NCBI GenBank assembly: GCA_013407085.1
Contig: JACCGJ010009915.1
Location: forward strand, 1-64,000
DNA from: Atriophallophorus winterbourni
Taxonomy: Eukaryota; Platyhelminthes; Trematoda; Plagiorchiida; Microphallidae
Direction: 5' to 3'
DNA length: 64,000 bases
Part shown: in pieces, positions 12,380-51,300 of the stretch
How the letters are laid out: each line of letters begins with the position of its first letter
Numbering within the stretch: position 1 is the first letter of the stretch
The notes under the pieces: generated by a model
The model's database searches: none
What the model saw: the letters and a program-made list of their open reading frames with translations, nothing else
What the model was told of the DNA's origin: nothing
Program-made: the position numbers and the translations under genes

Positions 12380-13345
12380 GCTTATCAATCTCCGTGTCTA
12401 GCGAGAGGTTATCCGCATTGGTTGAACTAAGATATGTGAAATGATGTACTAGTTTAAGCTGACAGTTTCCAGCAGTGATGATTGGAGGCGACAAAGTTCC
12501 CTGTTAGTATTGTTTGGAATATTTGTAGCTCGAGTCGGCAAGTTTATGCGGTAGAACCTTACTGTCCCTGGAGTAGAGAGAGGAGAATTGCTGTACCCGT
12601 TTTCCCATCTGCTGATTTTTGTAAACAATCGGGTCACCGGATGCAGATTTAATGGGATCCGTTTTAAGTTGGTTTGGGCCAATGGCTCTCATGATCCCAT
12701 CATACGTACCGTGAAAATCTCCGATATCCGCAGTTTTTACACATTGAGGCTAATTTCATTAAAGTAGTCGTTTGCACATCGCCTTGCAATCTGTTGGACC
12801 TTATTTCTAGCTGCTATTAGAAGTCGTCAGTTTTCGCCTGTTGGCATAGCTTTGAACCTCCAGAATGCTGACCGTTTCTCATCCAGCACAGCAGTCATCT
12901 CAGAAGCTTTTGCTTCGAACCAGTCGCTCGTTCGAGCTTTCTTCGGACCGAAAGTGGAAAGTGCGAATCGGCATATGCAGCTTTTTATCGATTCCCAGTT
13001 TTCTGAAGCAGTTTCGAGTTGGTGTTCTTGTTGAACTCTGCTGTGAAGGCTTTTGCGAATCGCGCAATTAGATTAGGTTTGCACGTGCGAGTGACGTCTA
13101 TCCTAGGCTTGGCAGATATTTTGGTGCGGTGAAATCTCTTGTGCGGAAGCTTCAGTTTTGCAAAGACACGTGAATGATCAGTGTTGCAGTCTGCCCTTTT
13201 ATATGATTTTGAGAAGAGCACGCTTCCTATATTAGTGCGCTTAACAAGAATAATATCAAGCTAATGCAAATGCTTAGAGCGAGGATGTTTCCGAGAGACT
13301 TTATGCTGTGGTTTTGTTTGAAATTAAGTGTTAGTGACACAGTAT
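12380..13345 (-). pseudogene. RTE-like element remnant, minus strand, copy 1
   Basis: Reading the minus strand from 13345 down one finds the endonuclease C-terminus (LSRKHPRSKHLH-like frames, then SYKRADCNTDHSRVFAKLKL and KPRIDVTRTCKPNLIARFAK), the linker, then MRAIGPNQLKTDPIKSASGD and the N-terminal RT segment (QMGKRVQQFSSLYS), and finally GTLSPPIITAGNCQLKLVHH followed by FTYLSS (usually YLGS). The catalytic RT centre between the last two pieces is missing, so it carries an internal deletion. It lies antisense to the neighbouring CR1 copies. Confidence 0.78.
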
Positions 13346-13617
13346 GAACTGTGTAGGATACTTTCAAATATAAACATATAAAGTTTTTACATCGAAATAT
13401 GTTTAGCATAATTAGCATAAATTGACCTTGCTGACAGTCGCTTTCCTCTCACAAATCATTTCATGGAATTTATATACCGAATTTATCGAATACGGAAAAT
13501 GTCAACGCAGTTTCACATTTCACATTATTAATTGCCATCAGACTGATCTACTATTAATTTTTCTGTATTATATATGCTTCTAAAAATAAAACGTAATATT
13601 TAGAGTGTTTTCGCCAG
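13346..13617. repeat. HOR-I module A, copy 1
   Basis: It contains TAAACATATAAAGTTTTTAC, GTTTAGCATAATTAGCATAA and TATATGCTTCTAAAAATAA. Module A is found next to the RTE remnant at 20185, 24238, 34945, 39800 and, more diverged, at 28185 and 55345. Confidence 0.8.
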
Positions 13618-15535
13618 TCAATTTGTCTAATAAACCCTGTATATATTGACCCATTTTATGATTGCATTTCAAATATAACTCTAAATATGCTTGTATTTAC
13701 ATCATAAAGTTGAATAAAGAAGGTATACATTTTTAGCACTGAATAATCCATTGAGCTATTTGCAGTAGTTATGTTGTTCAACTGTAGTCGATGAGCTTAT
13801 TTTAAATCTATCGTCACCATGGCTTTTTCGTTTATGACCGACTGGTTATCTGAGGTATGCTAGAATTTTTATGGTATCTAGGTAATAAATATCTGGTTTA
13901 CGTGAAGCAGAAAATTTGGACAGGTCACAAAATAATCGGCGAGGGACATTTAATCTTATGCCATTTATTCATACAAAATGACTTAACTCGCTTTCCAGTT
14001 GAATTCCAGATATTGTTCATTCGGAAGAAACGATTTTACAACTAATACGCTCATTTTACTTATGATTCAAGAATAACCATCATAGGTACCACAGGTTTTA
14101 CAAATATCTGCGATGCTATAGATTCTCTTGTTGAAACATTTAATTAGAATATTAATGGAGCTCTATTCCATCCGTCAAATTAGGTTTACGTTAATAAACT
14201 TTGGTGGTCGGAATAGCTGACAATTTATTCAAATATATCACTAACCACTGAAACGGTTTGACGAAACATTTGCGTGTTTTCTTCAAATGCTCTCTGGAAA
14301 TCGTGACTTATCGAATATATTCACCTAAGCGAATTAATTTTGTTCATTGAGATACATTTCTAGTCAATCTTCTGTGAATATCGTAAAAAGAAATTCGCTT
14401 ATGTCAACATATGCGAGATACATTTTGTGTACGTTAGATTATTTCTATCAACATACCGGTTCTTTGCGCAGCATTTCCTGCAAATAAGTTGAGAGAATGT
14501 AATTTTTGATGTGTTTAGCACCGCTGAACATCACTCTAAATCTTGCATGCTATAAAGTCAGAGATAATGTATTATGTCAATTTGTCTAATATACCCTGTA
14601 TATATTGACCCATTTTATGATTGCATTTCAAATATAACTCTAAATATGCTTGTATTTACATCATGAAGTTGAATAAAGAAGGTGTTCATTTTTAGCACCG
14701 AATAATACATTGAGCTATTTGCAGTAGTAATGTTGTTCAACTGTAGTCGATGAGCTTATTTGAAATCTATAGTCACCAGGGCTTTTCCGTTTATGACCGA
14801 CTGGTTATCTGAGGCATGCAAGAATTTTTATGGTATCTAGGTAATAAATATCTGCTCGCGCATACGTAAATATCTGGTTTCCGTGAAGCAGAAAATTTGG
14901 ACAGGTCACAAAATAATCTGCGAGGGACATTTAATCTTATGCCATTTATTCATACAAAATGACTTAACTCGCTTTCCAGTTGAATTCCAGATATTGTTCA
15001 TTCGGACGAAACGATTTTACAACTAATACGCTCATTTTACTTATGATTCAAGAATAACCATCATAGGTACCACAGGTTTTACAATTATCTGCGATGCTAT
15101 AGATTCTCTTGTTGAAACATTTAATTAGAATATTAATGGAGCTCTATTCCATCCGTCAAATTAGGTTTACGTTACTAAATTTTGGTGGTCGGAATAGCTG
15201 ACAATTTATTCAAATATATCACTAACCACTGAAACGGTTTGTCGAAACATTCGCGTGTTTTCTTCAAATGCTCTCTGGAAATCGTGACTTATCGAATATA
15301 TTCACCTAAGCGAATTAATTTTGTTCATTGAGATACATTTCTAGTCAATCTTCTGTGAATATCGTGAAAAGAAATTCGCATATGTCAACATATGCGAGAT
15401 ACATTTTGTGTACGTTAGATTATTTCAATCAACATACCGGTTGTTTGCGCAGCTTGTCATGCAAATAAGTTGAGAGAATGTAATTTTTAATGTGTTTAGC
15501 ACCGCTGAACATCACTCTAAATCTTGCATGTTATA
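13618..15535. repeat. tandem duplication, 959-bp period (end of A plus start of B)
   Basis: GTCAATTTGTCTAATA(A/T)ACC at about 13618 recurs at 14577, and the whole interval repeats to 15535 with few differences. The second copy contains an extra block (CTGCTCGCGCATACGTAAAT) missing from the first. The extra block is present in the other B copies, so the first unit has lost it. Confidence 0.88.
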
Positions 15536-16744: not shown

Positions 16745-18115
16745 TAGATAGCAATTCTTTGAATTACACAAATGCCTTTAACAGTGTTCTAAGAAACTCT
16801 TTACTCAAAAAAATTATCTGATCATGGCGTCAAGGCAAATATTCTTCATTGGCCGGATCCTATTTTGAGGGTCGTATCCAATACACATTCGCGAAGGACC
16901 AAACCTCCCGTGAAATAGCTATTCCCCGTGATGTCCTTCAAGGTGCAATATTGTCCCCATTCCTACTTTCTATTTATATTTCTGATATTCCCTCTGACCT
17001 ATCTGCAATTACCCTCAAATACGCTGATGATGTTGCCATTGCAGTAAATCAAAATCGTCGGATCGAGCAACATGCCTTAGGATCAATGGTAACGAACATT
17101 GGTCAATGGTCCTCCATGATTGGTTTATCGTTGAATCCTTCTAAATGCAGCAAAATTGTATTTTCTAACATGATTAGAGAGCGACGTTCAGCCTTTTATC
17201 AAGAAATGCCTCGCGTTTTTCTTAACGGCTTGGTGTTCGACTTATGTTGCAGCTTTAAGTATCTTGGTGTTACAATATCTGAAAATCTTAGCTGGACTGA
17301 ACATGTTACAAGGGCATTCATAAAAGTGCGCCAACTGTCATTCTACGCACTACGTATCCGTTCTTTCTACGTTCCACCAAATCTCATTCAACTTTTTGCT
17401 TTTTTCTTGCATTATTCCCCACCTTCTTTTTGCATTTCTGTGATTTTTCCCGGCCTCTTGCAAAGGATTTTACGATGATCAGAAGATGCATTAAGCTCAT
17501 CTCAAGATTGAGTTGTGTTTCCGCTGATGACATTCAAGACACTATTGTCAATCCTTATTTTCGGGAATGCAGCAGATTGATCGCGAACTTTTCTACTGAT
17601 AGTTTACATCCATTGAACGAAAGCCTTGTTTCTTGCGGATGTTTTTCCTCCACCCGAAGCCGGTACGTTATTCCCTATTCAAGAACGAATAAATTTAGAA
17701 ATTCTTTTATCACATACTTGGCCCGATACATGGTACAGCAATCAAAAGCTGTTACAGAGTTGAAAGAACGCTTGACAATTTTCCAATGATGCCACGATGT
17801 CCCAGTTAATTTTCGAGTTAATTTTTTAAATTCCCCTAACATTTGTCTAGCTCATGGTAACCTGACACTATTTTAGCCCAAATATTACTTCATTGTGTGG
17901 CACTTCATATATATTTTATTTTATTTGCATTATATAAAGAACCTAATTTTTTAATTCCGTGACATTTGTCTAGCCCGTGGTAACCTGACACTCCATTGGC
18001 CTATGTATTATTCAATTGTGCGCACGCTATACGTATGTTTTATTGGTATTATGTGGAGAAATTAATCTATTGCTGAAAATTCATGAACACTAATAAAGTC
18101 ATCCTTCTTCTTCTT
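16745..18115 (+). pseudogene. CR1-like retrotransposon, RT and 3' end, copy 2
   Basis: This is the best-preserved CR1 copy. From 16849 to 17478 a single open frame carries GRIQYTFAKDQTSREIAIPR, DVLQGAILSPFLLSIYISDI, catalytic LKYADDVAIAV, then NIGQWSSMIGLSLNPSKCSK, FKYLGVTISENLSWTEHV and YALRIRSFYVPPNLIQLF. The frame shifts near 17440 and the C-terminus continues to 17789 (ELKERLTIFQ). The 5' end is truncated at AGATAGC, where it joins module B at CTCGTTCT. The family GVLQG motif reads DVLQG here. The 3' UTR has the same internal duplication and ends AATAAAGTCATC plus TTC repeats. Confidence 0.9.
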
Positions 18116-20149: not shown

Positions 20150-20640
20150 GCCGCCTTTATTTTTTTTTAATATAACGAACTTCCGAGAGACTTTATGCTG
20201 TGGTTCTGTTTGAAATTAGGTGTTACTGACACAGTCTGAGCTGTGTAGGATATTTCAAATATAAACATATAAAGTTTTTACATCGAAATATATTTAGCAT
20301 AAATAGCATAAATTGACAGTCGCTTTCCTTTCACAAATCATTTCATGGAATGTATATACCGAATTTATCGAATACATAAAATTTCATCGCAGTTTCACAT
20401 TTCACATATTAGTCGATCGACTGATAGTTGTTGTGTATTATATATGCTTCTAAAAATAATACTTGATATTTAGCGTTTTTCGCTAATGTCAATTGTTTAA
20501 TGAACCGTGAATGCTTTGACATATTTTATGATTGCATTTCAAATCTAACTTCGAAAATGCTTTTATTTCCAACATAAAGTTGAATAAAAAAGGTATACAT
20601 TTAATAGCACCGAATAATCCATTCATGTATTTGCAGCAGT
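20150..20640. repeat. module A, diverged copy
   Basis: It starts with AACGAACTTCCGAGAGACTT and follows module A through GAATAAAAAAGGTATACATT. The first ~75 bases are the end of the RTE endonuclease segment read on the minus strand. Confidence 0.7.
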
Positions 20641-20658
20641 AATCTTGTTCAACTGTCT

Positions 20659-24164: not shown

Positions 24165-24646
24165 TACCATCTCACAAAAAGCTATTGCTAAAACAATCCT
24201 AAAGTTGCCGCCTTTATTTTCTGTTAATATAACGAACTTCCGAGAGACTTTATGCTGTGGTTTTGTTTGAAATTAAGTGTTACTGACACAGTATGAACTG
24301 TGTAGGATACTTTCAAATATAAACATATAAAGTTTTTACATCGAAATATGTTTAGCATAATTAGCATAAATTGACCTTGCTGACAGTCGCTTTCCTCTCA
24401 CAAATCATTTCATGGAATTTATATACCGAATTTATCGAATGCGGAAAATGTCAACGCAGTTTCACATTTCACATTATTATTTGCCATCAGAGTGATCTAC
24501 TGATAATTTTTCTGTATTATATATGCTTCTAAAAATAATACGTGATAGTTAGAGTTTTTTCGCCAGTGACAATTTGTCTAATAAACCCTGAATATTATGA
24601 CCCATTTTATGATTGCATTTCAAACATAACTCTAAAAATGCTAAAG
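24165..24646. repeat. module A, copy
   Basis: It follows the RTE fragment after a short joint (AAAGCTATTGCTAAAACAAT) and matches 13270-13720. It ends at the solo-LTR target site. Confidence 0.78.
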
Positions 24647-24846: not shown

Positions 24847-24851
24847 AAGGT

Positions 24852-26914
24852 GTACATTTTAGCACTGAATATTCAACTGAGCTATTTGCAGTAGTAATGT
24901 TGTTCAACTGTAGTCGATGAGCTTATATTAAATCTATAGTCACCATGGCTTTCTCGTTTATGACCGACTAATTATCTGAGGTATGCAAGAATTTTTATGG
25001 TATCTAGGTAATAAATATCTGCTCGCGCATACGTAAATATCTGGTTTCCGTGAAGCAGAAAATTTGGACAGGTCACAAAATAATCGGCGAGGGACATTTA
25101 ATCTTATGCCATTTATTCATACAAAATGACTTAACTCGCTTTCCAGTAGAATTCCAGATATTGTTCATTCGGAAGAAACGATTTTACAACTAATACGCTC
25201 ATTTTACTTATGATTCAAGAATAACCATCATAGGTACCACAGGTTTTACAATTATCTGCGATGCTATAGATTCTCTTGTTGAAACATTTAATTAGAATAT
25301 TAATGGAGCTCTATTCCATCCGTCAAATTAGGTTTACGTTAATAAACTTTGGTGGTCGGAATAGCTGACAATTTATTCAAATATATCACTAACCACTGAA
25401 ACGGTTTGACGAAACATTTGCGTGTTTTCTTCAAATGCTCTCTGGAAATCGTGACTTATCGAATATGTTTACCTAAGCGAATTAATTTTGTTCATTGAGA
25501 TACATTTCTAGTCAATCTTCTGTGAATATCGTAAAAAGAAATTCGCTTATGTCAACATATGCGAGATACATTTTGTGTACGTTAGATTATTTCTATCAAC
25601 ATACCGGTTCTTTGCGCAGCATTTCCTGCAAATAAGTTGAGAGAATGTAATTTTTGAAGTGTTTAGCACCGCTGAACATCACTCTAAATCTTGCATGTTA
25701 TAAAGTCAGAGATGATGTATGATGTGATCCCATGAAAATAAAATTGTTTACTTTATCAAACATATTGTGATTAATGACATTCGACGTTCCTGACAGAACA
25801 TTATTTTGAAATTCGCACAAAACGGAAAAATGTTTGTCATTCGACTAAATTCAACCATTCTTTCCAAATTTGGTATAAACCCAAAAATTAAATATTTCGA
25901 CAAATGTATGTCATTCGCCAATTTGGTTTGATTTCGCTCCTGATTTATTTTTTTGCGCTGCTCTGATAAAAAATAACATTTATTTCATTAATTACATTTC
26001 ATTCTCAATTACTACACGATTCAATCAATGTTCAATGCAATTAATCACTCATTTTCCTTGTTGAATGATCAGCTGAAATTTAGGAGAAGTTTTTGATTTG
26101 AAAATTATTTTGCTTGAACAAAATTAAGGATGTTTCCTGATTGATTGCACTCATCTGTTTGAGATTGCATGATATCATGTATTGATCTCTGATTTTATAC
26201 CTTTACGCGTTTCGAGGAGCCTAATCAAACGTTTGCAAACTAATGATATGAAATATCCCGAAAACACTCGCGATGTGTGTGATGAAAATGCATGCAAATG
26301 CGGATCATTTTTCATTAACTTTGGCTTAGCCTCACATTTTTGTAAGTAATCAAGTGATATAAAATTTTTGATCGTGTGGACGTTATACAACGAAGACTAA
26401 ATCGTTCAAGAGCTTTGGTGTTTTCCGTATTTTCAGGGCGGTCAACCACTCGATGCTAAAAACGATAATATTGTAGAGAATCGCAAGCTAAATTCATAAA
26501 ATGACACAAATGTTTATTTATATTTAACTATTAAATTGTTGACAGATCTTGCCAAATATGCTTCGACACATTTGCCTTTCAATTAATGTTTTTATGATAT
26601 TAAATTTCTTGTGTTTTGATAATACGTCGCTTGATTGTATACTACTGAGCGCGTTGATATACCAAGAACCTAGTAGAACACCCGACCATTCAAATGGTTT
26701 GAGCAACCCACATTCTCGATTGGACATACCCCGTAAAAGTTTCTCAGTGAATAATTGTTAAACTTGGAACGCATTACTTGATTAAATCATGCACTCGGGA
26801 CTAGCTATTGTACTTACATGGTAATTCAGCGAATACATTAACTACCATACGTTATGAGCCTGACAAAATTAGGTCTTGTAATGGTATATGTTTTGAGTCA
26901 ATATAACTCGTTCT
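24852..26914. repeat. HOR-I module B, full copy
   Basis: It runs from GTACATTTTAGCACTGAATA to the CR1 junction CTCGTTCT and matches 14690-16744 and 40443-42518 closely. Confidence 0.82.
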
Positions 26915-27170
26915 AGATAGCAAATCTTTGGATTACACAAATGCCTTCAACAGTGTTCTAAGAAACTCTTTACTCAAAAGAATTATCTGATCATGGCGTC
27001 AAGGCAAATATTCTTCATTGGCTGGATCCTATTTTGAGGGTCGTATCCAATACACATTCGCGAAGGACCAAACCTCCTGTGAAATAGCTATTCCCCGTGG
27101 TGTCCTTCAAGGTGCAATATTGTCCCCATTCCTATTTTCGATTTATATTTCTGATCTTCCCTCTGACCTA
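26915..27170 (+). pseudogene. CR1-like fragment, copy 3, interrupted by ribozyme array
   Basis: It starts AGATAGCAAATC and includes GRIQYTFAKDQTSCEIAIPR, GVLQGAILSPFLFSIYISDL, ending at CTGACCTA, where copy 2 continues TCTGCAATTACCC. The remainder of the CR1 element is absent after the array. Confidence 0.85.
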
Positions 27171-27195
27171 CTAGTTCGAAACGCGAAGATTCCAG

Positions 27196-27250
27196 CGGAT
27201 ACGCATAGCTGATGAGAGGCAAAAACCTCGAAACCGGTCCTGTGCTTCCG
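27196..27250 (+). ncRNA. hammerhead ribozyme, type I, unit 1
   Basis: Outer stem I is CGGA/TCCG (27196-27199 with 27247-27250), with a TAC/T internal loop. Inner stem I is GCATAG/CTGTGC (27203-27208 with 27240-27245). The core is CTGATGA (27209-27215). Stem II is GAGG-CAAAAA-CCTC, then GAAA (27230-27233), mini stem III AC-CG-GT and C17 at 27239. Self-cleavage is expected between 27239 and 27240. An additional helix CGAAACGC (27177-27184) with GCGTTTCG (27262-27269) extends stem I. Confidence 0.9.
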
Positions 27251-27452
27251 GTGAGATTTTAGCGTTTCGGAATAGTATTCTACTTTGAACTATCCAGGGG
27301 TTGTAATGACCATCGCGGCATTACGCCGTTGGATCAGTTGGGGCTTAGTTTCGCCCCTTCAGCTACTTATAAAGTAGTGAGTAGACGAGAACTTCAGTTC
27401 ACATTGCGCCATCCGTCAAGACAAATACTAGTTCGAAACGCGAATAGTCCAG

Positions 27453-27507
27453 CGGATACGCATAGCTGATGAGAGGCAAAAACCTCAAAACCGGTCCTGG
27501 GCTTCCG
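27453..27507 (+). ncRNA. hammerhead ribozyme, unit 2, predicted inactive
   Basis: It has the same layout as unit 1, but the invariant G12 is A (27487, CCTCAAAAC instead of CCTCGAAAC). The 3' side of stem I reads CTGGGC, which breaks one pair with GCATAG. G12 takes part in catalysis, so this copy should not cleave. Confidence 0.88.
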
Positions 27508-27709
27508 GTGAGATTTGTGCGTTTCGGAATGGTATTCTACTTTGAACTATCCAGGGGTTGTAATTACCCTCGCGGCAATACGCCGTTGGATCAGTTGGGG
27601 CTTAGTTTAGTCCCTTCAGCTACTTATAAAGTAGCGAGTAGACGAGAACTTCAGTTCTTATTACGCCATCCGTCTACACAAATACTAGTTCTAAACGCGA
27701 AGAGTCCAG

Positions 27710-27764
27710 CGGATACGCATAGCTGATGAGAGGCAAAAACCTCGAAACCGGTCCTGTGCTTCCG
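27710..27764 (+). ncRNA. hammerhead ribozyme, type I, unit 3
   Basis: Identical to unit 1 over all 55 bases of the motif. The core CTGATGA is 27723-27729, stem II is GAGG/CCTC (27730-27733 with 27740-27743), G12 is 27744, and the expected cut is between 27753 and 27754. The extended outer stem has one change (CTAAACGC). Confidence 0.9.
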
Positions 27765-27966
27765 GTGAGGTTTTAGCGTTTCGGAATGGTATTCCACTTT
27801 GAACTATCCAGGGGTTGTAATAACCCTCGCGGCAATACGCCGTTGGATCAGTTGGGGCTTAGTTTAGTCCCTTCAGCTACTTATAAAGTAGCGAGTAGAC
27901 GAGAACTTCAGTTCACATTGCGCCATCCGTCTACACAAATACTAGTTCGAAACGCGAAGAGTCCAG

Positions 27967-28021
27967 CGGATACGCATAGCTGATGAGAGGCAAAAACCTC
28001 GAAACCGGTCCTGTGCTTCCG
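27967..28021 (+). ncRNA. hammerhead ribozyme, type I, unit 4
   Basis: Identical to units 1 and 3 over the motif. The expected cut is between 28010 and 28011. Together with unit 3 it would release a 257-nt RNA (27754-28010). Confidence 0.9.
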
Positions 28022-28176
28022 GTGAGATTTTAGCGTTTCGGAATGGTATTCTACTTTGAACTATCCAGGGGTTGTAATTACCCTCGCGGCAATACGCCGT
28101 TGGATCTGTTGGGGCTTAGTTTAGCCCCTTCAGCTACTTATAAAGTAGCGAGTAGACGAGAACTTCAGTTCACATT

Positions 28177-29500
28177 ATTTTATGGAAATTGTATACTGAA
28201 TTTATCCAATACATAAAATTTCATCGCAGTTTCACATTTCAAATATTAGTCGATCTGCTGATAATTTTTGTGTATTATATATGCTTCTAGAAATAATGCT
28301 TGATATTTATCGTTTTTTTGCCAGTGGCAAGTTGATTGACGAACCGTGAATTTTTTGACATATTTTATGATTGCATTTCAAATATAACTTTGAAAATGCT
28401 TGTATTTCCAACATAAAGTTGAATAAAGAAGGTAAACATTTTTAACACCAATCAATCCTTTCATGTATTTGCAGCAGTAATGTTGTTCAACTGTAGGCGA
28501 TGAACTTAGTTTGTATTTTATATTTACCATGACGTTTTCTTTCAAGACGCAATTGACTGATTATCTTAGGTATGCAAGACGTTTGGTGGTATCCAAGTAA
28601 TCAAAAACTTCAGGTGCATACTTAAGAACCGGGTGACAGTTAAGCAGTAAATTTGGAGAGCTCGATCTATCTTTCCATCAATTGACATTAGTCGGCAATC
28701 TTTTTACCTGATAGTCAATCTTTGGGAGCTGTTTAAACTTTATTTATTTCAATATACATACAGTGAAACGTTCATGTGATCGCAGTTTTCCGTAGCAATT
28801 TTTCCGTATTTTAAACATACACACTCATTGTAATTTCAACCAATCACAAAAATGTTTTAGGTATTAAATAAACTATAAAAAATGCATAATTTCCGCATGC
28901 ATATGAGAATTTGAAAAAATATTATTGTGGTTCTACTGAAACGAGCAACAAGAACGCTGTAAGGCTGCAATCCACAATGCACAATTTTGTTGCAGTTTTT
29001 GAAACATTTTTGCGTCTATGCTCAACGCAAATGCATGTGAATATCAGGTTTTTCTGATTAAAAATTGTGGTAGAAATGTAGTAAGAATGTTGTACTCATT
29101 AATACACAGATATAAAATATGCACATATATATATATATTTATATATAACAGCGGCAGATTCTATGTTGTGATTTATTTGAATAATGAAATGTTTTATTTT
29201 AGTAACGTCAACATTTTCCTGAATACAGAATTTAAATGATTTTTCTTCATATGAAACTTAAAAAATATTTATCCGTGATACGATGGATATCAATGATTGC
29301 TAACGTACCTCTTCTTGATGATGGTGGAGATGTATTAGCTGGTTTGTGATATTTCAAATAATGAAATGTTATATGAAATGAAATATGTCTTCACTTTTAT
29401 CTTTTCAAGGGTGAGAATTAATTTTTATATAATATATCAGGAAAATTAGAATCCTCAGTACTTGCATTATTGAAGGATTTAAAGATCTTGTTCATAGTTT
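28177..29500. repeat. module A-derived repeat and following AT-rich DNA
   Basis: Right of the array the sequence joins diverged module A at ATTTTATGGAAATTGTATAC. The whole stretch matches 55430-56735 almost base for base, including CCATGACGTTTTCTTTCAAG and the TA-rich ACATATATATATATATTTAT. A short frame at 29018-29239 is identical in both places, but so is the non-coding DNA around it. Confidence 0.78.
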
Positions 29501-31795
29501 TCTGGATGATAATTGACATTATATCTGTTACAAATGTTTCATCAAACGTTTCACGAAAATTTCGGCGCAGGAAAATTAATCGTTTGCGATTTGTGCAGGC
29601 ATGCTTAAATGTTGTTATATTGCAATCGCGGCAAAAGAAAATTCTAAGTATTCAATTTTGATAGGTATAAACATCTCTGACAGCTCAATTTCTGTCGAAG
29701 TTATGCTTCTGTAAAATTGGTAAAATTAATGTTGCTTTTAATGCCTAAAATCTGAAAAGTCATTGCTAACAAAATATTCCATTCAACTTGAAAACATCAT
29801 ATTTTATATTTCCAGAATATATTTCTAATTTACAAGATAGTAACTAATTTATAAAATGCAGATCAGGAGATTCGTAAACGAAATCATTTTCAATCAGAGA
29901 GTCAAATGTTTTTAGTATCATAAAAAATGGACTTTTTATTGCACTTTAGTTGAAGAGATCAACATTTTGGATCCAACAGTCTGCTACTGGTAAATTGTAA
30001 GATTCTGAATAAACATGACAGTTTTTTATCAGCGCGAGATTTGGCAGAAACTATGCAGTCTTCTAATACATAAATTATTACAGTATTAGAAATTCGAATC
30101 TGATCAATTCTTCATTTTTTGCATGTATACATATATGTTTATACATTTGCAATTGACATTATCTGATATTGTGAATTTCAATTATACTCAAACAACTGGC
30201 CGTGTGCGCGTTGTGTGTTTGACGAAACAAAATGCACAACTATATTAGAGAATTTACTCCGGTGGTTTCAACGAGTCCACAAGTTTATGAATAAATGGGT
30301 TGAACAGGTTCGTAGTAACAAAAGTATCCGAAACTGGAGTTTATTCTCAAACGTTGTTTAATAATTTTAATAGTAATTCCAACGCCAGTTGATTGTGCAC
30401 AGCACAGATCCAGCTTTGCAGTTTAGTTGTTGACCTTCTTCTTCGGTCGAACTGGACCGCTTCGACTTTCAAAACTCTTATAAAAATTTTTTTTGCTTGT
30501 AAGTGATTAACATTGCTGCATCATTGTTGTATAATATTTGAATATTCTAAATAGTTTTTGAAATTCTAGAATAATTATTAATAATACGTTAGTATAAACA
30601 CTATCGATAGCGCACCTCGTCCTCTTGGTGAATCTGTAGTGGTTTGTCAAAGAAAATCACCGTTGAAATGAGGTGGATAAGCACAATAATAATGCTAATT
30701 TTTGAAACATTTCTGCGTCTATGCTTAACGCAAATGCATGTGAAAGTCACGTTTTGCTGATAAACGATTTTCTGATTCAAATTGTGTTACTAATGTAGTA
30801 AGAACTTTGTAATCATTATATACACCGATATAAAAATATGCATATATATAACAGCGGCAGATTCTATGTTGTGATTATTTAAATAATGAAATGTTTTATT
30901 ATGTCATTCTTGTCGTTACGTTTATCTTTTTATTGGTAAGATGTAAATTTTGTGGAAAATTAATGTTAAAATTTGGAATTCTCATTGCATTATTATTAAA
31001 CTCAAAGTTCTTCTTTATAATTTTTAGGATGATAATTGACTTCTTATTGGTTTCAAATGTTTCATCAAAAAGTTTCACGAAATATTCCACGCGGTACATT
31101 TAATCTGAACCAATTTGTTTAGACAGGCTGGAATATTAATATATTGCAGTCGCTGCAAATTCATCTGGGATTTCTTGATCGGATATTCTACTGAATTCAC
31201 AACGCAACCTGAAAGATACTTTGTTAAATCATTTTTAGGATTTCAGTTTTGATTGTTATACGAAACTCTGAAAGCTCAATTTGTCGCGAATTGTTTTCAC
31301 TAAAATTGTTATGAATAATGTTGATTTTAATGCTTAAAATCTTCAAACAATACGAGCTAAATTATTCTATTTAATTTCAAATCATCACATATCATTTTTT
31401 TAAAATATAAAACTAATTTAAACAATGGAAACAACTTTACAAAAAAAGCAAATTATGACAAGCGTAAATGAAATCATTTTCGATTGAGGGTATATATATA
31501 TGTGATGGTGCTGGAGCTGTAGCTGTTGGTGTATGAATATTGCAATGTAATAATAATAATATATATATACATTATTCTTAAATTAAAACTTCTTGTTCAT
31601 AATTTTTCGGATGATAATTAACATTATATTCGTTTCAAATGTTTCATCAAAACGTTTCACTTACTATTCGGCGCGGTACATTTAATCTCAACCGATTGGT
31701 TTAGACAGGCTTAAATAATAATATATTGCAGTTGCTACAAATTCATGTGAGATTTCTTGATCGAATATTCTACTAAATTCAAAACAGATGACTTT
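29500..31795. repeat. HOR-II basic repeats D and E, copy 2
   Basis: D-type blocks near 29550, 31080 and 31650 flank E. The order is the same as 44810-47340. No coding content was recognised. Confidence 0.78.
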
Positions 31796-34040: not shown

Positions 34041-35005
34041 CTTTTCAATCTCCGTGTCTAGCGAGAGGTTATCCGCAATGGTTGAACTAAGATATGTGAA
34101 ATCATGTACTAGTTTAAGCTGATAGTTTCCAACAGTGATGATTGGAGGCGACAAAGTTACCTGTTAGTATTGTTTGGAATATTTGTAGCTCGAGTCGGCA
34201 AGTTTATGCGGTAGAACCTTACTGTCCCTGGAGTAGGGAGAGGAGAATTGCTGTACCCGTTTTCCCACCTGCTGATTTTTGTAAACAATCGGGTCACCGG
34301 ATGCAGATTTAATGGGAGCCGTTTTAAGTTGGTTTCGGCCAATGGCTCTCATGATCCCATCATACGTACCGTGAAAATCTCCGATATCTGCAGTTTTTAC
34401 ACATTGAGGCTAATTTCATTAAAGTAGTCGTTTGCACATCGCCTTGCAATCTGTTGGACCTTATTTCTAGCTGCTATTAGAAGTCGTCAGTTTTCGCCTG
34501 TTGGCATAGCTTTGAACCTCCAGAATGCTGACCGTTTCTCATCCAGCACAGCAGTCATCTCAGAAGCTTTTGCTTCGAACCAGTCGCTCGTTCGAGCTTT
34601 CTTCGGACCGAAAGTGGAAAGTGCGAATCGGCATATGCAGCTTTTTATCGATTCCCAGTTTTCTGAAGCAGTTTCGAGTTGGTGTTCTTGTTGAACTCTG
34701 CTGTGAAGGCTTTTGCGAATCGCGCAATTTGCACATGCGAGTGACGTCTATCCTAGGCTTAGCAGACATTTTGATGCGGTGAAATCTCTCGTGTGGAAGC
34801 TTCAGCTTTGCAAAGACACGTGAATGATCAGTGTTGCAGTATGCCCTTTTATATGATTTTGAGATGAGCACGCTTCCTATATTAGTGCGCTTAACAAGAA
34901 TAATATCAAGCTAATGCAAATGCTTAGAGCGAGGATGTTTCCGAGAGACTTTATGCTGTGGTTTTGTTTGAAATTAAGTGTTAGTGACACAGTCTGAACT
35001 GTGTA
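34041..35005 (-). pseudogene. RTE-like element remnant, minus strand, copy 2
   Basis: Nearly the same as 12380-13345 at an offset of about 21.66 kb. The minus strand reads SYKRAYCNTDHSRVFAKLKL, AKPRIDVTRMCK, MRAIGRNQLKTAPIKSASGD and QVGKRVQQFSSPYS. The same catalytic centre is missing at the same joint, so both copies descend from one deleted ancestor. A small extra deletion near 34730 removes the LIARF region boundary. Confidence 0.8.
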
Positions 35006-36669
35006 GGATACTTTCAAATATAAACATGTACAGTTTTTACATCGAAATATGTTTAGCATAATTAGCATAAATTGAACTTGCTGACAGTCGCTTTCCTCTC
35101 ACAAATCATTTTATGGAATTTATATACCGAATTTATCGAATACGGAAAATGTCAACGCAGTTTCACATTTCACATTATTATTTGCCATCAGACTGATCTA
35201 CTGATAATTTTTCTGTATTATATATGCTTCTAAAAATAATACGTAATATTTAGAGTGTTTTCGCCAGTGTCAATTTGTCTAATAAACCCTGTATATTTTG
35301 ACCCATTTTATGATTGCATTTCAAATATAACTCTAAATATGCTTGTGTTTACATCATAAAGTTGAATAAAGAAGGTATACATTTTTAGCACTGAATAATC
35401 CATTGAGCTATTTGCAGTAGTAATGTTGTTCAACTGTAGTCGATGAGCTCATTTTAAATCTATCGTCACCATGGCTTTTTCGTTTATGACCGACTGGTTA
35501 TCTGAGGTATGCAAGAATTTTTATAGTATCTAGGTAATAAATATCTGCTCGCGCATACGTAAATATCTGGTTTCCGTGAAGCAGAAAATTTGGACAGGTC
35601 ACAAAATAATCGGCGAGGGACATTTAATCTTATGCCATTTATTCATACAAAATGACTTAACTCGCTTTCCAGTTGAATTCCAGATATTGTTCATTCGGAC
35701 TAAACGATTTTACAAGTAATACGCTCATTTTACTTATGATTCAAGAATAACCATCATAGGTACCACAGGTTTTACAATTATCTGCGATGCTATAGATTCT
35801 CTTGTTGAAACATTTAATTAGAATATCAATGGTGCTATATTCTATCCGTTAAATTAGGTTCACGTTATTAAATTTTGATGGTCGGAATAGCTGACAATTT
35901 ATTCAAATATATCACTAACCACTGAAACGGTTTGCCGAAACATTTGCGTGTTTTTTTCAAATGCTCTCTGGAAATCGTGACTTATCGAATATATTCACCT
36001 AAGCGAATTAATTTTGTTCATTGAGATACATTTCTAGTCAATCTTCTGTGAATATCGTAAAAAGAAATTCGCTTATGTCAACATATGCGAGATACATTTT
36101 GTGTACGTTAGATTATTTCAATCAACTTACCGGTTTGTTGCGCAGCTTGACATGCAAATAAGTTGAGAGAATGTAATTTTTAATGTGTTTAGCACCGCTG
36201 AACATCACTCTAAATCTTGCATGTTATAAAGTCAGAGATGATGATTTATTTTTTTGCGCTGCTATGATGAAAAATAATATTTTTCTCAATAATTCCATTT
36301 CATTCTTAATTACTACACGATTCAATTAATGTTCAATGCAATTAATCACTCATTTTCCTTGTTGAATGATCAGCTAAAATTTAGGAGAAGTTTTTGATTT
36401 GAAAATTATTTTGCTTGAACAAAATTAAGGATGTTTCCGGACTGATTGCACTCATCTGTTTGAGGAAGCATGATCGGAAGCATGATATCATGGATTGATC
36501 TCTGATTTTATACCTTTACGCGTTTCTAGGAGCCTAATCAAACGTTTGCAAACTAATGATATGAAATATCCCGAAAACACTCGCGATGTGTGTGATGAAA
36601 ATGCATGCAAATGCGGATCTTTTTTCATTAACTTTGGCTTAGCCTCACATTTTTGTAAGTAATCAAGTG
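35006..36669. repeat. HOR-I modules A and B, copy without the solo LTR
   Basis: It follows 13346 onward. AATAAAGAAGGTATACATTT near 35370 is the empty target site of the 195-bp LTR insertion. Module B is truncated near 36669 at TAAGTAATCAAGTG and has lost an internal stretch near 36240. Confidence 0.8.
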
Positions 36670-37664
36670 TTTGACGAAACAAAATGCACAACTATGTTAG
36701 AGAATTTAGTCCGGTGGTTTCAACGAGTCCACAAGTTTATGAATAAATGGGTTGAACAGTTTCGTAGTAACAAAAGTATCCGAAACTGGAGTTTATTCTC
36801 AAACGTTGTTTAATAATTCTAATAGTAATGCCAACGCCAGTTGATTGTGCACAGCACAGATCCAGCTGTGGAGTTTAGTTGTTGACCTAATCCTTCGGTC
36901 GAACTGGACCGCTTCAACTTTCAAAACTCTTATAAAATTCTTTTTTGTAAGTGATTAACATTGCTGCATCATTATTGTATAATATTTGAATATTCTAAAT
37001 ATTTTTTGAAATTCTAGAATAATTATTAATAATACGTTAGTATAAACCTTATCGATAACGCACCTGGAGGTCTTGATGGAGCTGTAGTGGTTTGTCAAAG
37101 AAAATCACCGTTGAAATAAGGTGGGTTTGCACAATTGTGTTTCGATTTTTTGAAACATTTCTGAGTCTATGCTTAACGCAAATGCATGTGAAAGTCACGT
37201 TTTGCTGATAAACGATTTTCTGATTCAAATTGTGTTACTAATGTAGTAAGAATATTGTAATCATTATATACACCGATATAAAAATATGCATATATATAAC
37301 AGCGGCAGATTCTATGTTGTTATTTTTTTAAATGATGAAATGTTTTATTATGTCATTCTGGTCGTTACGTTTAGCTTTTTATTGATAAGATGTAAATTTT
37401 GTGGAAAATTAATGTTAAAATTTGGAATTCTCAGTATTTGCATTATTATTAAATTCAAAGTTCTTCTTTATAATTTTTAGGATGATAATTGACTTCTTAT
37501 CCGTTTGAAAAGTTTCATCAAAACGTTCCACAAAATATTCGACGCAGTACATTTAAGCTCAACCGATTGGTTTAGACAGGCTTAAATATTAATATATTGC
37601 AGTTGCTACAAATTCATGTGAGATTTCTTGATCGAATATTCTATAAATTCAAAACACAACTTTA
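36670..37664. repeat. HOR-II repeat E and D, partial copy
   Basis: It starts within E at TTTGACGAAACAAAATGC and runs to the hammerhead tandem repeat. The stretch 36690-38455 is almost identical to 59060-60826 (offset 22373-22374). Confidence 0.8.
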
Positions 37665-38275
37665 GTCATCCATAAGCGCCTTGAGTGCTTGACCACGAAT
37701 CATTATGTGATTCTGTGTTTGAACATCGTGATTCGTTGTACGGTGCCTATGCAACAGTGGCATTCAAGTATCACTCGTTTAGCATTTATCCACTGTTTCA
37801 AGGCTCACTGAACCTAATCTTTCTGTCTATATCTGATGAAGGCAAAAAGTCAGAATACGGTATTGGAGTGTGATTTTGGGGGATGTGAGCAACAGATAAC
37901 TTTGGTCATCCATAAGCGCCTTGTGTGCTTGACCACAAATCAAAATATGATGCTGTGTTTGAACATCGTGATTCGTTGTACGGACCCTATGCAACAGTGG
38001 CATTTAAGTATCACTTGTTCACCGTTTATCCAGTGTTTCAAGGCTCGCTGAAGCTAATCTTATAGTCTCTACCTGATAAAGGCAAACAGCCAGAAACCGG
38101 TATCGGATTGTAATTTCGGGGGATTTGAGCAACACATAACATTGGTCATCCATAAGCGCCTTGAGCGCTTGACCACAAATCATTATGTGATTCTGTGTTC
38201 TAACATCGTGGTTCATTGTACGGTTCGTTGAACCTGCTTCGCGTTGCTCGTCGAAGATCAGTGCTTGTACCAATA
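37665..38275. repeat. 240-bp tandem repeat with hammerhead-like motif, 2.5 units
   Basis: CATAAGCGCC occurs at 37671, 37911 and 38151, an exact 240-bp period. The first unit has CTGATGAAGGCAAAAAGTCA; the second has CTGATAAAGGCAAACAGCCA followed by GAAACCGGTATCGG. Both are decayed hammerhead cores. Confidence 0.85.
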
Positions 38276-39735: not shown

Positions 39736-40237
39736 TCTCACAGGAAAGCTATTGCTAAAACAATCCTAATGGTGCCGCCTTTATTTTCTGTCAATATAAC
39801 GAACTTCCGAGAGGCTTTATGTTGTGGTTTTGTTTGAAATTAAGTGTTACTGACACAGTATGAACTGTGTAGGATACTTTCAAATATAAACATATAAAGT
39901 TATTACATCGAAATATGTTTAGCATAATCAGCATAAATTGACCTTGCTGACAGTCGCTTTCCTCTCACAAATCATTTTATGGAATTTATATACCGAATTT
40001 ATCGAATACGGAAAATGTCAACGCAGTTTCACATTTCACATTATTATTTGCCATCAGACTGATCTACTGATAATTTTTCTGTATTATATATGCTTCTAAA
40101 AATAATACGTGATATTTAGAGTTTTTTCGCCAGTGACAATTTGTCTAATAAACCCTGAATATATTGACCCATTTTATGATTGCATTTCAAATATAACTCT
40201 AAAAATGCTTGTATTTACATCATAAAGTTGAATAAAG
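39736..40237. repeat. module A, copy
   Basis: It matches 24165-24646, including TCTCACAGGAAAGCTATTGC and the minus-strand end of the RTE endonuclease, and ends at the LTR target AAGGT. Confidence 0.78.
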
Positions 40238-40242
40238 AAGGT

Positions 40243-44713: not shown

Positions 44714-46789
44714 CAGTAATCTTGTTCAGCTGTCTCCACCTGTGACGGCAAACAGCCAGAAACCGGTAGTGGTGTGAAAGGGATGGGGATGTGAGCAACA
44801 CATTAATTTGACATTATATTTACTACAAATGTTTCATCAAACGTTTCACGAAAATTTCGGCGCAGGAAAATTAATCGTTTGCGATTTGTGCAGGCATGCT
44901 TAAATGTTGTTATATTGCAATCGCGGCAAAAGAAAATTCTAAGTATTCAATTTTGATAGGTATAAACAGCTCAATTTCTGTCGAAGTTATGCTTCTGTAA
45001 AATTGGTAAAATTAATGTTGCTTTTATTGCCTAAAATCTGAAAAGACATTACGACCAAAATATTCCATTCAACTTCAAATCATCATATTTTATATTTCCA
45101 GAATACATTTCTAATTTACAAGATAGTAACTAATTTATAAAATGCAAATCAGGAGATGCGTAAACGAAATCATTTTCAATCAGGGAGTCAAATGTTTTTA
45201 GTATCATAAAAATGGACTTTTTATTGCACTTTATTTGAAGAGATCAACATTTTGGATCCAACAGATGCTAGTCTGCTACGGGTAAATTGTATGATTCTGA
45301 ATAAACATGACAGTTTTTTATCAGCGCGAGATCTGGCAGAAACTATGCAGTCTTCTCATACATAAATTATTACTGTATTAGAAATTCGAATCTGATCAAT
45401 TCTTCATTTTTGCATATATACATGTATGTTTATAAATTTGCAATTGACACTATCTCAAAATGTGAATTTCAATTATACTGTGTGCGCGTTGTGTGTTTGA
45501 CGAAACAAAATGCACAACTATATTAGGGAATTTGGTCCGGTGGTTTTAACGAGTCCACTAGTTTATGAATAAATGGGTTGAACAGGTTCGTAGTAACAAA
45601 AGTATCCGAAACTGGAGTTTATTCTCAAACGTTGTTTAATAATTTTAATAGTAATTCCAACGCCAGTTGATTGTGCACAGCACAGATCCAGCTGTGCAGT
45701 TTAGTTGTTGACCTTCTTCTTCGGTCGAACTGGACCGCTTCGACTTTCAAAACTCTTATTAAATTGTTTTTTCTTGTAAGTGATTAACATTGCTGCATCA
45801 TTGTTGTATAATATTTGAATATTCTAAATATTTTTTGAAATTCTAGAATAATTAATAATATTACGTTAGTATAAACCTTATCGATAACGCACCTCGAGAT
45901 CTTGGTGGAGCTGTAGTGGTTTGTCAAAGAAAATCACCGTTGAAATAAGGTGGGTTTGCACAATTGTGTTTCTATTTTTTGAAACATTTCTGCGTCTATG
46001 CTTAACGCAAATGCATGTGAAAGTCACGTTTTGCTGATAAACGATTTTCTGATTCAAATTGTGTTACTAATGTAGTAAGAACTTTGTAATCATTATATAC
46101 ACCGATATGAAAATATGCATATATATAACAGCGGCAGATTCTATGTTGTGATTATTTAAATAATGAAATGTTTTATTATGTCATTCTCGTCGTTACGTTT
46201 ATCTTTTTATTGGTAAGATGTAAATTTTGTGGAAAATTAATGTTAAAATTTGGAATTCTCATTGCATTATTATTAAACTCAAAGTTCTTCTTTATAATTT
46301 TTAGGATGATAATTGACTTCTTATTGGTTTCAAATGTTTCATCAAAACGTTTCACGAAATATTCCACGCGGTACATTTAATCTTAACCAATTTGTTTAGA
46401 CAGGCTGGAATATTAATATATTGCAGTCGCTGCAAATTCATGTGGGATTTCTTGATCGGATATTCTGCTGAATTCACAACGCAACCTGAAAGATATATTG
46501 TTAAACAAATCATTTTTAGGATTTCAGTTTTGATTGATATACGAAACTCTGAAAGCTCAATTTCTCGCGAATTGTTTTCACTAAAATTGTTATGAATAAT
46601 GTTGATTTTAATGCTTAAAATCTTCAAACAATACGAGCTAAATTATTCTATTTAATTTCAAATCATCACATATTATTTTTTTCAAATATGAAACTAATTT
46701 AAACAATGGAAACAACTTTACAAAAAAAGCAAATTATGACAAGCGTAAATGAAATCATTTTCGATTGAGGGTATATATATATGTTATAA

Positions 46790-47160
46790 AGTGACTGGTG
46801 TTTTGTCATAAAACCATGAAAACCTTTTTTTTAGTGAAACGTAGGAAAACAATCCATGATATTGCTCCAACAGGTTTTGGTTGAGCTTTAGCTGTTGGTG
46901 TGAATATTGTAATGTAATAATATATATATATATATATATGCAGTAATCTAAAATAAAATGTTCTTGTTCATAATTTTTCGGATGACAATTTTGTGATGAA
47001 ACCAAGAGAACATATTTGATAGTGATACGTAGGAAAAAATCCATGATAACGCACGGATAGGTGGTGCTGGAATGTAATTGCAATGTAATTATATATATAT
47101 ATATATATATATGCATTATTCTTAGATTAAAACTTCTTGTTCATAATTTTTCAGATGATA
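46790..47160. repeat. two 187-bp subrepeats each with a TA microsatellite
   Basis: AATCCATGAT occurs at 46851 and 47038. Each unit ends with TAATATATATATATATATGC or similar, then CTTGTTCATAATTTTTC. The same pair is at 50420-50790 and related units lie at 31500, 39520 and 62560-64000. Confidence 0.82.
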
Positions 47161-47339
47161 ATTAACATTATATTCGTTTCAAATGTTTCATCAAAACGTT
47201 TCACTTACTATTCGGCGCGGTACATTTAATCTTAACCGATTGGTTTAGACAGGCTTAAATATTAATATATTGCAGTTGCTACAAATTCATGTGAGATTTC
47301 TTGATCGAATATTCTACTAAATTCAAAACAGATGACTTT

Positions 47340-47712
47340 AGTCATCCATAAGCGCCTTGCGTGCTTGACCACAAATCACAATGTGATTCTGTGTTTGAAC
47401 ATCGTGATTCGTTGTACGGATCCTATGCAACAGTGGCATTTAAGTATCACTTGTTCACCGTTTATCCAGTGTTTCAAGGCTCGCTGAAGCTAATCTTATA
47501 GTCTCTACCTGATAAAGACAAACAGCCAGAAACCCGTATCGGATTGTAATTTCGGGGGATGTGAGCAACACATAACATTGGTCATCCATAAGTGCCTTGA
47601 GCGCTTGACCACGAATCATTATGTGATTCTGTGTTTGAACATCGTGGTTCGTTGTACGGTTCGTTGAACCTGTTTGGCGTTGCTCGCCGAAGATCAGTGC
47701 TTGTACCAATAG
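47340..47712. repeat. 240-bp tandem repeat with hammerhead-like motif, 1.5 units
   Basis: TCCATAAG occurs at 47345 and 47585. The core reads CTGATAAAGACAAACAGCCA then GAAACCCGTATC, so it is decayed. Confidence 0.8.
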
Positions 47713-48337
47713 TGTACCTCATGAAAGTTACTGATTTGTCTATAAAAAAATGACAGTAAGATTGTTTTGTTTGCCGAAGGTATGAATATATGATGTCTTT
47801 TCAACAATGTCGAGGACATTTTTCTTGCTACCAAACAACTTGATTTCATTGTACGAATAGACATCCGAATTTAACATGCCTTTGAAAACGCATCAATCTA
47901 AGACCACGCAGATTGGCAGCGGTCTTGGCTTTTCTTACCCATACCAACTTGGAGACCGATTCACGAATTCACAGCAAGAGAAACGTAATTGATGTCACGA
48001 TTTGTTGTGATTTGGAAAATGGTCTTTAAAGGGAAAGCGTGTGTAAAAGCTGCTATTTAAGTTAGGCGGATATCAGGTAATTTATTCCCGGTTTTTTGCC
48101 TCTTATGATAAACACCTTAAAAATCTGGTTCTAGACAATCCTGCCAAAGGGTATGCACAATGATTCTATAATGATATTTTTATTCAGGTATATCTGATAA
48201 TATATAGCATAAAAGCTGTTCCATGGTTTTAAGAATACACAATATGTCTAGCAACTTATACGTCTGGCTCTGCGGCCGCTTACTCCCGTTGGATAATGTA
48301 TTCTTGACAAAAACATTATAGCATGCTTTATATACCC

Positions 48338-51300
48338 CAGTAATCTTGTTCAACTGTCTCCACCTGTGACGGCAAACAGCCAGAAACCGGTAGTGGTGTG
48401 AAAGGGATGGGGATGTGAGCAACACATTAATTTGACATTATATTTACTACAAATGTTTCACCAAACGTTTCACGAAAATTTCGGCGCAGGAAAATTAATC
48501 GTTTGCGATTTGTGCAGGCATGCTTAAATGTTGTTATATTGCAATCGCGGCAAAAGAAAATTCTAAGTATTCAATTTTGATAGGTATAAACAGCTCAATT
48601 TCTGTCGAAGTTATGCTTCTGTAAAATTGGTAAAATTGATGTTGCTTTTATTGCCTAAAATCTGAAAAGACATTACGACCAAAATATTCCATTCAACTTA
48701 AAATCATCATATTTTATATTTCCAGAATATATTTCTAATTTACAAGATAGTAACTAATTTATAAAATGCAAATCAGGAGATGCGTAAACGAAATCATTTT
48801 CAATCAGGGAGTCAAATGTTTTTAGTATCATAAAAATGGACTTTTTATTGCACTTTATTTGAAGAGATCAACATTTTGGAATATAACAGATGCTAGTCTG
48901 CTACGGGTAAATTGTATGATTCTGAATAAACATGACAGTTTTTATCAGCGCGAGATTTGGCAGAAACTATGCAGTCTTCTCATACATAAATTATTACCGT
49001 ATTAGAATTTCGAATCTGATCAATTCTTCATTTTTGCATATATACATATATGTTTATATATTTGCAATTGACACTATCTCAAAATGTGAATTTCAATTAT
49101 ACTCAAACAACTGGCCGTGTGCGCGTTGTGTGTTTGACGGAACAAAATGCACAACTATATTAGGGAATTTGGTCCGGTGGTTTCAACGAGTCCACTAGTT
49201 TATGAATAAATAGGTTGAACAGGTTCGTAGTAACAAAAGTATCCGAAACTGGAGTTTATTCTCAAACGTTGTTTAATAATTCTAATAGTAATTCCAACGC
49301 CAGTTGATTGTGCACAGCACAGATCCAGCTGTGCAGTTTAGATGTTGACCTTCTTCTTCGGTCGGACCGCTTCGACTTTCAAAACTCTTATTAAATTGTT
49401 TTTTCTTGTAAGTGATTAACATTGCTGCATCATTGTTGTATAATATTTGAATATTCTAAATATTTTTTGAAATTCTAGAATAATTAATAATATTACGTTA
49501 GTATAAACCTTATCGATAACGCACCTCGAGATCTTGGTGGAGCTATAGTGGTTTGTCAAAGAAAATCACCGTTGAAATAAGGTGGGTTTGCACAATTGTG
49601 TTTCTATTTTTTGAAACATTTCTGCGTCTATGCTTAACGCAAATGCATGTGAAAGTCACGTTTTGCTGATAAACGATTTTCTGATTCAAATTGTGTTACT
49701 AATGTAGTAAGAACTTTGTAATCATTATATACACCGATATGAAAATATGCATATATATAACAGCGGCAGATTCTATGTTGTGATTATTTAAATAATGAAA
49801 TGTTTTATTATGTCATTCTCGTCGTTACGTTTATCTTTTTATTGGTAAGATGTAAATTTTGTGGAAAATTAATGTTAAAATTTGGAATTCTCATTGCATT
49901 ATTATTAAACTCAAAGTTCTTCTTTATAATTTTTAGGATGATAATTGACTTCTTATTGGTTTCAAATGTTTCATCAAAACGTTTCACGAAATATTCCACG
50001 CGGTACATTTAATCTTAACCAATTTGTTTAGACAGGCTGGAATATTAATATATTGCAGTCGCTGCAAATTCATGTGGGATTTCTTGATCGGATATTCTGC
50101 TGAATTCACAACGCAACCTGAAAGATATATTGTTAAACAAATCATTTTTAGGATTTCAGTTTTGATTGATATACGAAACTCTGAAAGCTCAATTTCTCGC
50201 GAATTGTTTTCACTAAAATTGTTATGAATAATGTTGATTTTAATGCTTAAAATCTTCAAACAATACGAGCTAAATTATTCTATTTAATTTCAAATCATCA
50301 CATATTATTTTTTTCAAATATGAAACTAATTTAAACAATGGAAACAACTTTACAAAAAAAGCAAATTATGACAAGCGTAAATGAAATCATTTTCGATTGA
50401 GGGTATATATATATGTTATAAAGTGACTGGTGTTTTGTCATAAAACCATGAAAACCTTTTTTTTAGTGAAACGTAGGAAAACAATCCATGATATTGCTCC
50501 AACAGGTTTTGGTTGAGCTTTAGCTGTTGGTGTGAATATTGTAATGTAATAATATATATATATATATATATGCAGTAATCTAAAATAAAATGTTCTTGTT
50601 CATAATTTTTCGGATGACAATTTTGTGATGAAACCAAGAGAACATATTTGATAGTGATACGTAGGAAAAAATCCATGATAACGCACGGATAGGTGGTGCT
50701 GGAATGTAATTGCAATGTAATTATATATATATATATATATATATGCATTATTCTTAGATTAAAACTTCTTGTTCATAATTTTTCAGATGATAATTAACAT
50801 TATATTCGTTTCAAATGTTTCATCAAAACGTTTCACTTACTATTCGGCGCGGTACATTTAATCTTAACCGATTGGTTTAGACAGGCTTAAATATTAATAT
50901 ATTGCAGTTGCTACAAATTCATGTGAGATTTCTTGATCGAATATTCTACTAAATTCAAAACAGATGACTTTAGTCATCCATAAGCGCCTTGCGTGCTTGA
51001 CCACAAATCACAATGTGATTCTGTGTTTGAACATCGTGATTCGTTGTACGGACCCTATGCAACAGTGGCATTTAAGTATCACTTGTTCACCGTTTATCCA
51101 GTGTTTCAAGGCTCGCTGAAGCTAATCTTATAGTCTCTACCTGATAAAGACAAACAGCCAGAAACCGGTATCGGAATGTAATTTCGGGGATGTGAGCAAC
51201 ACATAACATTGGTCATCCATAAGTGCCTTGAGCGCTTGACCACGAATCATTATGTGATTCTGTGTTTGAACATCGTGGTTCGTTGTACGGTTCGTTGAAC

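Follow-up and report, generated by a model that had tools for sequence, protein, structure and literature searches.

Metazoan non-LTR retrozymes are described as having units of 170-400 nt and as occurring in platyhelminths among other phyla (PMC7229834). Their GC content is given as below 50% in the text of that paper and as below 45% in a figure legend, and a target-site duplication of more than 4 bp is reported "when present" (PMC7229834). Most invertebrate motifs are stated to have a stable helix III, and retrozymes seem to be promoterless (PMC7761336), which fits transcription by read-through. In S. mansoni, four W-element families carry hammerhead-like sequences in units of 332-428 bp (PMC8490949, table 1); of five candidates tested from W25.2 and W36.2, three showed activity, and stem III is described as extremely short in all of them (PMC8490949). 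Newt and axolotl repeats, which have the same form of helix III as the locus analysed here, are reported to cleave poorly as single motifs (6% in an hour), with better cleavage when built as dimers (PMC7229834), and a dimer mechanism for hammerheads is also described in PMC6155905.

The locus lies in a window of 64 kb (the whole stretch of DNA that was analysed; all positions refer to it) and is a 1-kb stretch within repeat-rich, animal-like DNA. A 257-bp unit is repeated there head-to-tail in 3.92 copies on the plus strand (27169-28176; 95% matches and 0% indels by TRF). The hammerhead array is genuine and probably belongs with the retrozymes; as a kind it is ordinary. The array and its ribozymes are as follows.

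27169 to 28176, plus strand: tandem array of 3.92 copies of the 257-bp unit (TRF; pairwise copy identity 93.0-97.5%)
27191 to 27262, plus strand: hammerhead 1, intact core, predicted cut 27239/27240 (HH9 42.5 bits; strict descriptor)
27448 to 27519, plus strand: hammerhead 2, mutated core (HH9 34.3 bits; alignment; missed by the strict descriptor)
27705 to 27776, plus strand: hammerhead 3, intact core, predicted cut 27753/27754 (HH9 41.3 bits; strict descriptor)
27962 to 28033, plus strand: hammerhead 4, intact core, predicted cut 28010/28011 (HH9 42.5 bits; strict descriptor)

A strict type I hammerhead descriptor matched exactly three sites on the plus strand of the 64-kb window and none on the minus strand, with core starts at 27209, 27723 and 27980 and the cleavable C17 at 27239, 27753 and 28010. 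The same descriptor gave a mean of 0.0 matches in 100 first-order Markov sequences of 64 kb searched on both strands. The best-scoring Rfam family for the motifs was Hammerhead_HH9 (RF02275), an isolated motif of amniotes, with E-values for the whole window of 1.7e-07, 7.2e-05, 4.2e-07 and 1.7e-07 for copies 1-4 (42.5, 34.3, 41.3 and 42.5 bits). All four scores lie below the HH9 gathering score of 52 bits, so that a default Rfam scan of the window, at gathering score, is empty for every family. A chance match is ruled out by the Markov controls together with the HH9 E-value of 1.7e-07. Judged by sequence, the motifs are type I hammerheads, accepted by the descriptor in three of four copies and matched by HH9 in all four at E ≤ 7.2e-05. 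On the minus strand of the window neither the descriptor nor Rfam found a hammerhead, and the both-polarity layout of viroid-like RNAs was not seen. In viral contigs, a relaxed core pattern had 88 matches, none of them a complete hammerhead by a test that recovers the three sites of the window; the strict pattern occurred in none of the viral contigs, bacterial genomes or archaeal genomes searched, collections in which an animal element is hardly expected. Two 19-base core strings were absent from openly licensed papers, and a 12-base string was found there in three, all unrelated by title.

A first-pass annotation had proposed a hammerhead array with 257-bp spacing, three motifs with a full core and cleavage at 27239/27240, 27753/27754 and 28010/28011. 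All of this is borne out, by the TRF period of 257 (3.9 copies) with a motif in each copy, by the acceptance of copies 1, 3 and 4 and by the positions of C17. The Rfam covariance search it had put forward as a check gave a divided answer, with no copy reaching the gathering score and HH9 E-values from 1.7e-07 to 7.2e-05. Its reading as type I hammerheads on the retrozyme/Sm-alpha plan holds by the Rfam E-values, the layout and the features given in the literature, but fails in its description of helix III (see below).

The explanation that we consider likely is that the array consists of tandem copies of a small non-coding retroelement, one of the metazoan non-LTR retrozymes, which would spread through circular RNA. 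We infer that RNA of the array is cleaved and circularised. Read-through transcripts of the plus strand would fold such that the ACCGGU segments of two copies pair, and the core of one copy would cut the GUC site of the other, releasing 257-nt RNAs with 5'-OH and cyclic-phosphate ends. Host tRNA ligase would close the released RNAs into circles, and a reverse transcriptase of LINE or PLE type would copy the circle into tandem DNA. The RNAs expected from this process are the following.

27240 to 27496 (unit 1), 27497 to 27753 (unit 2) and 27754 to 28010 (unit 3), plus strand: unit-length RNA between predicted cut sites

In size and tandem arrangement (257 bp, 3.92 copies) the array agrees with the retrozymes. 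Its GC content of 47-48% (0.467-0.482 for the unit) lies under the 50% of the text of PMC7229834 and over the 45% of its legend. The unit RNA is predicted to be a strongly self-paired, compact circle, as in retrozymes, with circular minimum free energies (MFE) of −85.9 to −91.0 kcal/mol against shuffle means of −59.4 to −63.4. By unit, the values for units 1-3 are −90.1, −85.9 and −91.0 kcal/mol, with 67-69% of bases paired, and the means of 100 Markov shuffles are −59.4, −63.4 and −63.0 kcal/mol, the circular folds lying about 3-4 standard deviations below the shuffles. Antisense units 1-3 as circles gave −74.3, −63.9 and −69.7 kcal/mol. Further copies of the unit were found in the 64-kb window neither by a unit model nor by short-word BLAST against the masked window: beyond the four copies the model gave just weak minus-strand matches inside the array (13.6-15.4 bits), which are the unit's own self-complementarity, and BLAST gave only two 12-mers.

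Two other functions of the unit were considered and rejected. A coding array is contradicted by a sole stop-to-stop frame of at least 75 aa (86 aa, 27466-27723), by a period that is not a multiple of 3 and by the absence of a listed frame of like length for the other copies. For an internal pol III promoter, the best A/B-box pairs in the unit carry four mismatches (sense) and three (antisense), levels reached by 164 of 200 shuffles (≤4, sense) and 63 of 200 (≤3, antisense); none is promoter-like above chance.

The flanks of the array bear on how it arrived.

24847 to 27170, plus strand: left flank, a repeat containing a reverse transcriptase frame and truncated at the array (self-comparison)
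28174 to 30313, plus strand: right flank, a different repeat, entered internally, with a copy at 55417-57553 (self-comparison)

Self-comparison showed that homologues of the left-flank repeat, by inference of LINE type, run on uninterrupted past the same point at 10103 and 17001, and RVT_1 was found in an uninterrupted copy (16822-17475). Over its first 0.5 kb the right flank shows 75-79% similarity to a block situated in the left part of the other flank's repeat. No target-site duplication was found, the outer 40 bp of both sides sharing at most two AT-rich 6-mers that sit away from matching junction positions. Neither end of the array is at a cleavage site, which is expected if a circle or an uncut multimer was copied; this counts for little in favour of copying, since the ends may be secondary.

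Another explanation, which we regard as possible yet clearly the less probable, is that the array is a satellite block that keeps the ribozyme of an old SINE-like element and whose spread went by way of DNA (unequal crossing-over, DNA circles or end joining) and not of RNA. The array sits between two different repeats in a repeat-dense region without a target-site duplication. Its junction overlaps of only 2-3 bp (TA; ATT) could stem from end joining or recombination, and the observed junctions are what would be expected either of end joining or of recombination involving two loci that both carry an array. The hammerhead-bearing repeats of schistosomes also make large satellite blocks (PMC8490949, table 1). 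Against a satellite origin, three of the four copies keep an intact core and the circular folds are far more stable than those of shuffles, which suggests recent RNA function, and there is little sign of step-wise duplication within the array, given that a single one of the 22 variable columns groups two copies against two (2 and 3 against 1 and 4). The remainder are private changes, spread unevenly among the copies (9, 8, 4 and 1), three of which fall in the stretch missing from copy 4. Variation is lower in the ribozyme (3/67 columns against 19/190), a difference that is not significant (Fisher p 0.21). As read from the alignment, the column pattern weakly favours copies made together, and would fit either a single round of copying followed by drift or an earlier homogenisation of the block.

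The window is largely filled by repeats, several of them longer than 1 kb at 92-97% identity (self-comparison). Several repeats have in common a block of about 400-500 bp (77-96% identity), and the array is joined at its right end inside one such block.

13289 to 13785, 20181 to 20656, 24238 to 24642, 34939 to 35437, 39805 to 40242, 55332 to 55847 and 28171 to 28663: shared block of about 400-500 bp (self-comparison)

A direct tandem duplication of about 3.6 kb stands end to end at 98% identity (44714-48340 and 48338-51971). Two arrays of a 240-bp unit, with 2.4 copies each, lie inside larger repeats (37650-38223 and 60023-60597; TRF), and related sequence occurs at 22422, 31783, 47327 and 50959 (self-comparison). 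Pfam searches of five stop-free ORFs of the window found RVT_1 in two, DUF7041 in one, no domain in two and GIY-YIG in none. Pieces of a Ty3-type element span 291-2485, comprising a DUF7041 ORF (291-1334), which is presumably gag-like, and a reverse transcriptase ORF (1664-2485). The Ty3-type polymerase had 5469 protein matches; among the best 120 of these, the best single-domain relatives are 65% identical, and named relatives at 57-61% include flukes, a tapeworm and a sea cucumber. The top matches in the same 120 are P0005-P0007, two of which (P0006 and P0007) come from the spider Oedothorax gibbosus, with scores inflated because the domain is present twice. A reverse transcriptase fragment had four distant protein matches, the best at 40%. 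No spliced-leader 12-mer or telomere repeat was found in the window.

The most useful feature of the array is its helix III, which predicts dimer-dependent cleavage. Stem I has an inner part (GCAUAG/CUGUGC) and an outer part (CAGCGG/CCGGUG, with one G.G mismatch) separated by the loops AUAC and UU, and stem II is GAGG/CCUC with the loop CAAAAA. Two loop sequences, UAC in stem I and CAAAAA in stem II, match the HH9 consensus exactly. Only six letters, ACCGGU, stand between GAA and the cleavable C17.

27233 to 27238, 27490 to 27495, 27747 to 27752 and 28004 to 28009, plus strand: self-complementary helix III segment ACCGGU (sequence; unchanged in four of four copies)

By its sequence, helix III is either one A-U pair with a palindromic CCGG tetraloop or a 6-bp helix formed only between two copies, and it points to dimeric cleavage. 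The "2-bp stem III" of the first-pass annotation would close a 2-nt loop and cannot form; ACCGGU gives one A-U pair and CCGG. The ACCGGU/ACCGGU duplex has a predicted energy of −8.3 kcal/mol, and the self-complementary segment that characterises dimeric (newt-type) hammerheads is found in all four copies. The trait is not new, given that a supplementary legend of PMC3088659 describes most of its listed stem III/loop III sequences as palindromic enough for dimers.

Folding energies, which leave out loop-loop tertiary contacts, were compared for paired and single action. In two-copy transcripts (1-2, 2-3 and 3-4), the dimer hammerhead lies 0.9, 0.9 and 0.3 kcal/mol above the MFE, two open-core monomers lie 11.6, 11.6 and 8.6 above it, and two monomers whose core is allowed to pair lie 6.4, 6.4 and 3.4 above it; in the MFE fold the copies pair with each other in another way, and the core is covered. 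When the ribozymes are folded as separate 67-nt molecules, the dimer gains 8.5-10.7 kcal/mol over two monomer hammerheads, but it is less stable by 5.5-8.9 kcal/mol than the co-fold MFE and by 3.7-4.9 than two monomers each in its own MFE fold. The dimer is thus unfavoured between separate short molecules, and the case for it rests on tandem copies in cis. A retrozyme whose ribozymes work as monomers, tolerating a helix III of a single A-U pair, appears doubtful, because the lone 67-nt ribozyme of copies 1, 3 and 4 has an MFE (−23.2 kcal/mol) that pairs the core GCUG with CGGU and hides the core, against −17.1 kcal/mol for the hammerhead fold with stems I and II and −11.2 with the one-pair helix III. 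Monomer action would gain from tertiary contacts ignored by the energy model, which the HH9-identical UAC and CAAAAA loops could give, and from the monomeric activity reported for amphibian motifs, 6% and 22% after one hour (PMC7229834).

Dimeric action would also matter for copy 2, in which GAAA has become AAAA at 27487 and the 3' strand of stem I carries G for U at 27500 (alignment columns 62 and 75). The lost G corresponds to G12, the general base. Since each core in a dimer acts on its partner's site, the copy 2 site (27496/27497) may still be cut by a neighbour's core, with a lower predicted efficiency owing to the A.G mismatch in stem I.

That the array is a pseudo-LTR remnant of a Penelope-like element is highly improbable: minimal type I hammerheads and a tandem arrangement are described for such elements (PMC11167929, PMC7761336), but helix III and tertiary interactions are said to be usually absent from their hammerheads (PMC6155905) where the array has HH9-type loops, the 257-bp period is too short for a PLE ORF, and the five ORFs scanned contain no GIY-YIG domain or other protein that would bear out the Penelope affiliation suggested at first pass.

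The retrozyme model is supported by HH9 in all four copies, by three descriptor sites against 0.0 in controls, and by the period, the GC content below 50%, the circular folds below shuffles and the two-copy dimer energies. It is weakened by the missing target-site duplication, by flanks that are different repeats, by GC above the 45% of the legend, by the lack of promoter-like pol III boxes beyond chance level, by the dimer energies of separate molecules and the core-covering two-copy MFE, and by uneven private changes with ribozyme conservation that is not significant. One PLE tested in vitro is reported to insert without need of hammerhead cleavage (PMC11167929), which also counts against the model.

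More tentatively, the array may represent an unlisted retrozyme family whose ribozymes act only in pairs. If so, only multimeric transcripts would allow release and spread, a circle of one unit would be stable because an active dimer could not form within it, and neighbours would process a dead copy such as copy 2. This would bear on how such circles escape re-cutting, a question left open by PMC7229834. The array would add a sequence family to the animal hammerhead-bearing circular-RNA elements. With one dead and three apparently live ribozymes, this compact natural array makes dimer dependence and service by neighbours directly testable, and it indicates that a scan at Rfam gathering scores can overlook such an array.

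Compared with metazoan non-LTR retrozymes (Cervera and de la Pena 2020, PMC7229834), the array shares tandem units of a few hundred bp with a type I hammerhead, no visible LTR and a unit RNA predicted to be highly self-paired. It differs in a helix III of the amphibian palindromic type, where most invertebrate motifs have a stable one, and in having no target-site duplication, which the wording "when present" makes compatible with membership. The hammerhead-bearing repeats of schistosomes (SM-alpha/W36.2, W25.2, W26.2 and W27.2) resemble it in their tandem satellite-like units, type I hammerheads and extremely short stem III; by description, not sequence, their units of 332-428 bp differ from the 257 bp found here. 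The first-pass label "Sm-alpha-like" accordingly applies to structure only, the S. mansoni hammerhead families having units of 332-428 bp (PMC8490949) and the SM-alpha/W36.2 repeat itself one of 332-335 bp. W31.2, compared likewise by description, is near in length (260 bp) but stands outside the four families reported with hammerheads (PMC8490949). Rfam HH9 (RF02275) shares with the array motif the loop II sequence CAAAAA and the UAC of the stem I loop; the array motif differs in that its loop III is deleted and in its score of 42.5 bits against a gathering score of 52. The satellite hammerheads of newt and axolotl (HHR_Amex1, PMC7229834) have longer units (330-350 bp) and, compared by structure, resemble the array: both combine a single-pair helix III with a palindromic tetraloop.
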